Below, in pieces: positions 11,057 to 62,223 of a DNA stretch of 64,000 nucleotides (positions are counted from its first letter, which is position 1; every line of letters starts with the position of its first letter). The notes beneath the pieces were generated by a model that was not told the DNA's origin, did not search any database, and saw only the letters and a list, made by a program, of their open reading frames with translations. The stretch lies in assembly GCA_017524405.1 (NCBI GenBank), contig JAFWSJ010000014.1, positions 191,623-255,622 of the forward strand. Direction: 5' to 3'. This DNA comes from Candidatus Saccharimonadota bacterium (GTDB lineage: Bacteria > Patescibacteriota > Saccharimonadia > Saccharimonadales > Saccharimonadaceae). The position numbers were made by a program, and so were the translations under genes.

Positions 11057-11133
11057 TGGTGCGGGTTAAGAGACTCTAACTCTCGACCTCTTCCTTGGCA
11101 AGGAAGCGCTCTAAACAACTGAGCTAAACCCGC
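11057..11133 (-). tRNA. tRNA-Gly (anticodon GCC)
   Basis: Full cloverleaf with encoded CCA: acceptor GCGGGTT/AACCCGC, D-arm GCTC/GAGC, anticodon stem CTTCC/GGAAG with loop TTGCCAA, and T-arm GAGAG/CTCTT. The T-loop reads TTAGAGT, so position 56 is A instead of C, and the D-loop reads AGTTGTTTA, so position 19 is T instead of G. The near-universal G19-C56 tertiary pair is therefore replaced by U19-A56. It lies 37 nt after znuB on the same strand and has its own terminator. Confidence 0.95.
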
Positions 11134-14731: not shown

Positions 14732-14805
14732 TGGAGGTGCGTACCAGAGTTGCACTGGTCTACGAGGTTTTGCAGACCTCTGCGTAACTGCTCCGCCAAC
14801 GCACC
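14732..14805 (-). tRNA. tRNA-Cys (anticodon GCA)
   Basis: 74 nt with encoded CCA and discriminator T: acceptor GGTGCGT/ACGCACC, anticodon stem GAGGT/ACCTC with loop CTGCAAA, T-arm ACCAG/CTGGT. The T-loop is TGCAACT, so position 55 is G instead of U. The D-loop reads AGCAGTTA, so position 18 is A instead of G. Both partners of the conserved 18-55 contact are changed. A TAAAAT -10 box about 7 nt upstream gives it its own promoter. Confidence 0.93.
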
Positions 14806-60953: not shown

Positions 60954-61601
60954 TTATTCGGGAAGCTCAAAAAGTGGTAGTTCGGCGATGTCGTAGTCGG
61001 CAATCTTCGTGCGGCGGAGCGCCGAGCAATACGCGCCACAACCGAGCGCCCTGCCAATGTCTTCGGCGAGCGTACGAATATAAGTGCCGCTACTGACATG
61101 GGTGCGAATCTTTAATTCCGGTTCATTATATTCAACGAGGTCGAGCTCGTAGATTTCGACTTGGCGAGTCGGGATCTCGAAATCTTTGCCGGCACGAGCA
61201 AGTTTGTAGGCGCGCTGGCCGTTAATCTTGATTGCCGAAAAAGCCGGCGGACGTTGCTCAATTTTACCAGTGAATCGTTTTAGTGTTTCCTGAATCTGCT
61301 CAACAGTCGGAAGCTCAGCGCCAGTCTTCGTAATTTCGCCTTCCGGATCGCCAGTAGTTGATGTCTCGCCGAGACGAATCGTCGCTTCGTAAACTTTATC
61401 TTTCTTTGTAAGTTCTGGGGCCTTTTTTGTAGCTTTGCCGGCAAGCAAAATGAGGAGCCCAGTCGCGAACGGGTCGAGCGTACCAGTGTGGCCAACTTTG
61501 ACCTTATGGCCTTCTTGCTGCGACAAAATCCTGCGAACGCGGGCGACCGCACCAAAACTACTCATGCCAGACGGCTTGTCGACAAAAATGATTGCTTCCA
61601 T
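60954..61601 (-). CDS. truB: tRNA pseudouridine-55 synthase TruB
   Basis: 215 residues; the catalytic Asp is in GHTGTLDPFATGLL near residue 43, with FVDKPSGMSSFG at the start and SSGTYIRTLAEDIG later. The C-terminal PUA domain is lacking, giving a short form. It modifies U55 in the T-loop; the tRNA-Cys in this window has G at position 55 and cannot be its substrate. It lies 22 nt after the Cys-rich membrane gene and 15 nt before prfB. Confidence 0.95.
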   Translation of the reverse strand: MEAIIFVDKPSGMSSFGAVARVRRILSQQEGHKVKVGHTGTLDPFATGLLILLAGKATKKAPELTKKDKVYEATIRLGETSTTGDPEGEITKTGAELPTVEQIQETLKRFTGKIEQRPPAFSAIKINGQRAYKLARAGKDFEIPTRQVEIYELDLVEYNEPELKIRTHVSSGTYIRTLAEDIGRALGCGAYCSALRRTKIADYDIAELPLFELPE

Positions 61602-61623
61602 CTTATCTAATATTATGCCAGAA

Positions 61624-62223
61624 CTATTCAGCTTTGGCGTATTTTTGCATGAAGATATCGAGATCGGCTGCTTCTTTCACGTCATCGAGACGATCGAAGA
61701 CAGTGCCGCCCTTGACGTGGATGAAGGCTGGGGTTTCATCGCAACCACCGAGGCGCTCCTGAATATTCAAGTCATCGCTGCTTGGTTCGGCCGGGATAGT
61801 ATAACGATAAATTGGAGTCGTGGCATCATATGCCGCTACGCGACGAGCAAAGGCATCGCAGGTAATGCAGTTCTCTTCGCCAACAATCAGGAGACCAGTC
61901 TTCTGGGAGTTGAGCATATCAATAACGGCACCTGCGCCAACGAGCGTAAAGCCGTTTTCGTCGAGCACATTGCTGTTAACGGCTTTCTCAAACATACCAT
62001 TATAGGCATAGGTGCTAGGCTTGAAGATGTCGCGAACGGACTTATTAAAACTGAGCGAGATGATGAGTACGGTCATTACGACAACGAGAGACGCAATGAG
62101 CACATAAAAGGCAACTTGGTTGCCAGTGCCGCCGCAGCTGCACTTATCGCACTTGCATTTCTCTTCGCATTTTTTGCATTTTTCCGTTTTTGGTTTGGCT
62201 GACGTTTTCTTTGCTGTTGCCAT
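61624..62223 (-). CDS. Membrane protein with cytoplasmic Cys cluster and external CxxC domain
   Basis: 199 residues; no named family. A cytoplasmic N-terminus of about 35 residues carries six cysteines (C16, C19, C23, C25, C28, C30) among Lys/Glu, a possible metal site. A membrane segment follows (about 36-58), then an external part with thioredoxin-like features: LLIVGEENCITCDAF (CxxC near 116-119) and a later ETPAFIHV segment that may be the cis-Pro loop. GGAGATT precedes the ATG. A thiol oxidoreductase with a metal-binding tail is the inference. Confidence 0.75.
   Translation of the reverse strand: MATAKKTSAKPKTEKCKKCEEKCKCDKCSCGGTGNQVAFYVLIASLVVVMTVLIISLSFNKSVRDIFKPSTYAYNGMFEKAVNSNVLDENGFTLVGAGAVIDMLNSQKTGLLIVGEENCITCDAFARRVAAYDATTPIYRYTIPAEPSSDDLNIQERLGGCDETPAFIHVKGGTVFDRLDDVKEAADLDIFMQKYAKAE

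Follow-up and report, generated by a model that had tools for sequence, protein, structure and literature searches.

Position 19 is G and position 56 is C in nearly all tRNAs. Few features of tRNA are as strongly conserved as the 19-56 and 18-55 contacts, to which the ribosome, RNase P, and modification enzymes all bind. A tRNA-Gly(GCC) gene in a 64,000-nucleotide stretch of DNA from a Candidatus Saccharimonadota bacterium (hereafter, the window) carries U19 and A56 instead, which raises the question of whether it encodes a working tRNA with a rebuilt elbow or is the product of sequencing error or decay. The original prediction favored a functional, co-evolved elbow, and this view is supported by the sole copy of the gene, its identical relatives, and the covariation described below. 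We estimate a probability of roughly 90% that the gene specifies an elongator tRNA-Gly(GCC) that is both functional and essential, and whose U19-A56 Watson-Crick pair would replace G19-C56 and cap the elbow in the same manner.

Table 1. Location of the tRNA and truB features in the window
Feature	Position	Strand	Evidence
tRNA-Gly(GCC), 77 nt including encoded CCA	11057..11133	-	ARAGORN, Rfam, whole-genome tRNA census
U19, D loop	11115	-	sequence; U or A here class-wide
A56, T loop, partner of U19	11077	-	sequence; class-wide Watson-Crick partner of 19
Encoded 3′ CCA	11057..11059	-	sequence
tRNA-Cys(GCA), A18 and G55 replacing G18 and U55	14732..14805	-	ARAGORN; Rfam 48.6 bits
truB, tRNA pseudouridine-55 synthase	60957..61676	-	motif scan; NCBIfam TIGR00431 equivalog, 240.5 bits

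Structural Integrity and Gene Context

The gene is called tRNA-Gly(gcc) by ARAGORN and reads, from 5′ to 3′, GCGGGUU-UA-GCUC-AGUUGUUUA-GAGC-G-CUUCC-UUGCCAA-GGAAG-AGGUC-GAGAG-UUAGAGU-CUCUU-AACCCGC-A-CCA. It matches RF00005 in Infernal with 69.0 bits (E 2.3e-14) in an alignment without a broken pair; all four stems of the cloverleaf are standard-paired, as had been predicted, and the GCC anticodon lies inside the seven-nucleotide loop UUGCCAA. The D loop consists of A14, G15, U16, U17, G18, U19, U20, U20a, and A21, and the T loop of U54, U55, A56, G57, A58, G59, and U60, so that G18, U54, U55, A58, and G53-C61 of the elbow are all present. The letters of G19-C56 are replaced by U19-A56, as read from the sequence, and pairing of the two bases is supported by covariation. 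The gene remains a tRNA despite this exchange because G19-C56 represents consensus letters rather than a requirement of the family. The tRNAs listed from this genome all end in CCA. The cloverleaf is not recovered when the bare sequence is folded to minimum energy; unmodified tRNAs often behave in this way, and the outcome carried no weight in the assessment. According to Pfam annotation, the operon upstream of the tRNA gene is a zinc-uptake ABC operon with a Fur-family member.

The host genome (898 kb in 18 contigs, 99% complete) contains 42 tRNA loci according to Infernal and 44 according to ARAGORN, with one gene each for Gly(GCC), Gly(UCC), and Gly(CCC). The original prediction had proposed a search for a second Gly(GCC) gene, and none was found among the 44 tRNA genes of this nearly complete genome. 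In long open frames, GGC and GGT make up 14,197 of the 16,952 Gly codons (84%). The sole Gly(GCC) gene is therefore no dispensable relic, which excludes decay; as the only reader of GGC and GGU, its product presumably carries glycine and takes part in ribosomal translation. A first search for relatives returned a 100% identical tRNA-Gly(GCC) in 12 genomes including the window's own, and among the matches listed from named genomes, homologous tRNA genes belonged mostly to Candidatus Saccharibacteria, several being identical over the compared stretch. The identical gene in 12 genomes, together with class-wide covariation, rules out chance or a sequencing error as the origin of U19-A56.

Covariation of Positions 19 and 56 within the Class

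A pattern in which positions 19 and 56 were left free matched 95 of the 117 genomes of the class Saccharibacteria, each with either U19-A56 or A19-U56. Other, looser patterns recovered 11 more genomes, eight of them (seven plus G085) with a pattern excluding G19 and C56 and three with both positions free. The tRNA-Gly(GCC) was thus readable in 106 of the 117 genomes, of which 89 have U19-A56 and 17 have A19-U56; neither G19-C56 nor a mismatch occurs in these 106. Among the 11 genomes in which the gene was not read, five are at least 98% complete, and because every pattern holds the greater part of both the D arm and the T arm constant, unusual forms would be missed.

On an rpoB tree of 84 genomes, constructed by a quick method and containing some long branches, the pair switched between U-A and A-U at least eight times within the class, indicating that shared ancestry by itself does not account for the agreement between the two positions. 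In all seven independent pairs on supported branches, positions 19 and 56 change together. The covariation analysis that had been suggested at the outset thus came out in favor of a co-evolved elbow, with U-A or A-U in 106/106 genomes; relatives with G19-C56 together with a normal second copy in the genome, the combination originally associated with a decaying gene, were not seen inside the class. The paired change is real, but the description of it as a peculiarity of one gene had to be abandoned, since it is class-wide, exists in two interchangeable forms, and is also present in viruses and in further phyla. One relative (L225) has A19-U56 and one D-loop U fewer but is otherwise the same as the window gene over the compared stretch, and can be regarded as a natural double exchange of the two positions. 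Collectively, the U-A/A-U elbow of tRNA-Gly(GCC) is real, class-wide, and compensated, and all of the indirect tests that could be applied indicate that it is functional.

A shifted reading of the D loop, in which its single G would be G19, was also considered and rejected, as only the base following that G covaries with position 56. Two genomes, G445 (contig C97) and G134, each contain two non-canonical tRNA-Gly(GCC) copies with the same Watson-Crick pair in both. When the anticodon was left free in a pattern excluding G19 and C56, the class search returned Gly(GCC) from almost all genomes, together with a few scattered Ala matches and single cases of Val and Gly(CCC). The tRNA-Ala(UGC) of the window's own genome (L007, G000:C11:3147-3220) also shows A19-U56.

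Distribution outside the Class

A first pattern for the phylum, which matched 39 of 287 genomes, was too strict, and a T-side pattern took its place. In other Patescibacteria classes, tRNA-like matches have C56, and A19-U56 is found in three sampled genomes; on this basis, C56 is kept by most other Patescibacteria. Scanning the genome collection with only A or U allowed at both positions yielded at least 57 U-A and at least 23 A-U genes, and neither A-A nor U-U was present among the matches listed under this restriction. A search that did not specify the anticodon found 23 matches among the 79 Bdellovibrionia genomes, located in 22 of them and without exception Gly(GCC) with A19-U56. In Bacteroidia, 5 of 119 genomes yielded 13 matches, of which 12 were Gly (GCC or UCC) and the remaining one was Ala(UGC). 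Labilibaculum carries A19-U56 in each of its three Gly(GCC) copies. In the sampled bacteria, the exchange thus falls mostly on glycine tRNAs.

In viruses, 80 tRNAs from IMG/VR having neither G19 nor C56 comprised 71 A-U, 4 U-A, 2 C-G, and 3 mismatched cases, which means that 77/80 retain a Watson-Crick pair. The viral exchange is common in many isoacceptors, such as Thr, Val, Ile, and Pro, but hardly in Gly, showing that exchange at 19/56 is chemically general.

Compared to the canonical G19-C56 of RF00005, the window gene uses the same positions, Watson-Crick partners, and cloverleaf, and is likewise the sole decoder of its codons, whereas the U-A or A-U pair of Saccharibacteria is fixed through the whole class in one isoacceptor. 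The A19-U56 tRNA-Gly(GCC) of Bdellovibrionia, Labilibaculum, and other Bacteroidia shows the same exchange in the same isoacceptor, and in Labilibaculum, as in Saccharibacteria, all genome copies of this tRNA are altered. However, only A-U with U73 is seen in Bdellovibrionia and Bacteroidia, whereas U-A dominates with A73 in Saccharibacteria. The phage tRNAs show the same Watson-Crick exchange, but they serve many amino acids, include few Gly, and are probably accessory rather than sole decoders, unlike the Saccharibacteria gene. The tRNA-Gly with U-A or A-U represents a variant form of the known 19-56 contact. The discriminator of tRNA-Gly is A73 in Saccharibacteria (window position 11060) and U73 in Bdellovibrionia and Bacteroidota (L161, L168, and L172), so the elbow exchange occurs with either base.

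The strings "U19-A56" and "A19-U56" were not found in the literature searched, which covered few subscription papers; searches of the same scope for 19-56 covariation, or for Saccharibacteria with tRNA-Gly, returned nothing relevant. Work by Zagryadskaya and co-workers from 2004, cited in PMC7912444, reportedly dealt with the elements that are key to the L-shape of tRNA.

TruB and Pseudouridine 55

The TruB encoded in the window contains the catalytic motif. A58 is the most important base for recognition by TruB, which also reads U54 and C56 (PMC6850298); its minimal substrate is 53-GUUYRANYC-61 (PMC7912444). The U56 relatives have the pyrimidine at position 56 that this substrate demands, and the window gene has A56. 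Since A56 falls outside the consensus though TruB is encoded in the same window, the U19-A56 tRNA-Gly may be devoid of pseudouridine 55.

Possible Basis of the Exchange

Structures of elbow readers, namely the E-site 23S rRNA, RNase P, and T-box RNAs, show that they recognize the 19-56 pair mainly by stacking (PMC4810234). Because these known RNA readers stack on the flat face of the pair, U19-A56 would be expected to stack like G19-C56. A U-A or A-U pair could offer a similar flat face and thereby keep the flat stacking platform, so the simplest reading would be that the contact is conserved while its letters are free to vary. The common ancestor of these bacteria may have moved from G-C to a weaker pair with two hydrogen bonds, after which either orientation would have been acceptable. 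With less certainty, some particularity of tRNA-Gly may cause the exchange to be tolerated or favored, because Gly is affected repeatedly in three bacterial phyla. Counting against the explanation as a whole, only the GCC isoacceptor is altered here, although each of the three Gly isoacceptors has to be charged by GlyRS.

Several other explanations were weighed against this conserved contact with free letters. Decay of the gene, or of a duplicate under relaxed selection, could account for elbow letters that depart from the canonical ones, but not for the sole Gly(GCC) gene with intact stems, 69 bits, and encoded CCA, its identity in congeners, and the perfect compensation across the class; it was rejected on the basis of the single copy and class-wide covariation, and its probability is close to nil. 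The staphylococcal tRNA-Gly copies that feed cell-wall peptidoglycan bridges are extra, non-proteinogenic copies in which the elbow contact is lost, and an altered elbow in a tRNA-Gly could similarly mark a molecule set apart for non-ribosomal work. The window tRNA, however, is no extra copy but the sole reader of GGC/GGU, its 19-56 pair is kept rather than lost, and in Labilibaculum all three Gly(GCC) copies carry the exchange; such a role is hence very improbable. Loss of the T-loop enzyme TruB might have relaxed the elbow letters, in line with four of the 44 tRNAs of the genome having T-loop letters other than UUC (Gly(GCC) UUA, Ala(UGC) UUU, Cys UGC, and Gly(CCC) UCC). The truB gene with its catalytic motif in the same window leads to rejection of this cause here, provided that the enzyme is active, and leaves it similarly little chance.

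More weight can be given to selection on tRNA-Gly for a less stable elbow or a change in its modification, whereby A-U or U-A would balance the very strong codon-anticodon pairing of GCC and A56 would also switch off pseudouridine 55. It is in accordance with bacterial matches that are almost only Gly (GCC, UCC, and CCC) and Ala, readers of G/C-rich codons, and with an A56 that lies outside the consensus of a TruB that is present. On the other hand, G/C-rich Arg anticodons with the same D arm were unmatched in the anticodon-free class search, the viral exchange hardly falls on Gly, and the A19-U56 form fits the TruB consensus; this explanation is therefore considered unlikely, though far from negligible.

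The U19-A56 tRNA-Gly as a conserved contact implies that a highly conserved tRNA contact can be rebuilt with other bases provided that pairing stays. Its repeated exchange in single-copy essential tRNAs constitutes a natural experiment, in which selection would keep pairing and not letters.

A Second Elbow Exchange and Other Unusual tRNAs

The tRNA-Cys(GCA) of the window shows an exchange at the neighboring 18-55 contact. Matched class genomes comprise 35 with G18-U55, 17 with A18-G55, and none with a mixed state, and at least eight switches are found on the same rpoB tree. Of 82 viral tRNAs having neither G18 nor U55, 81 carry A18-G55, in isoacceptors including Gly GCC, Phe, Met, Ile, and Thr, and four further viral Cys-type tRNAs join this set (IMG/VR loci L583-L662 and L703-L706 for the viral tRNAs together). 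These counts point to A18-G55 as a general alternative elbow contact; neither the string nor a description of "A18-G55" was found in the literature searched, which covered few subscription papers. The G55 of tRNA-Cys cannot become pseudouridine.

Tentatively, and with a lesser chance of being right than of being wrong, tRNA-Gly could be a recurrent hotspot of elbow rebuilding in bacteria. In Saccharibacteria, the flip between A19-U56, which fits the TruB consensus, and U19-A56, which falls outside it, would then switch pseudouridine 55 on and off in the main glycine tRNA, and tRNA-Cys would pass from G18-pseudouridine 55 to A18-G55. If this were true, essential translation in the class would run with elbow chemistries that have been thought fixed. 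Matched pairs (G-C, A-U, and U-A; G18-U55 and A18-G55) are ready-made for asking what TruB, GlyRS, and the ribosome read, and the exchanges bear on how tRNA finders and designers of orthogonal tRNAs treat supposedly invariant positions.

Two more tRNAs depart from the usual letters. The tRNA-Gly(CCC) (L013, G000:C17) has the T loop UCCGACU with C55, so that G18 would face C55. In tRNA-Ala(GGC) (L063, G000:C11:48017-48089), U15 and G48 replace the Levitt pair G15-C48.
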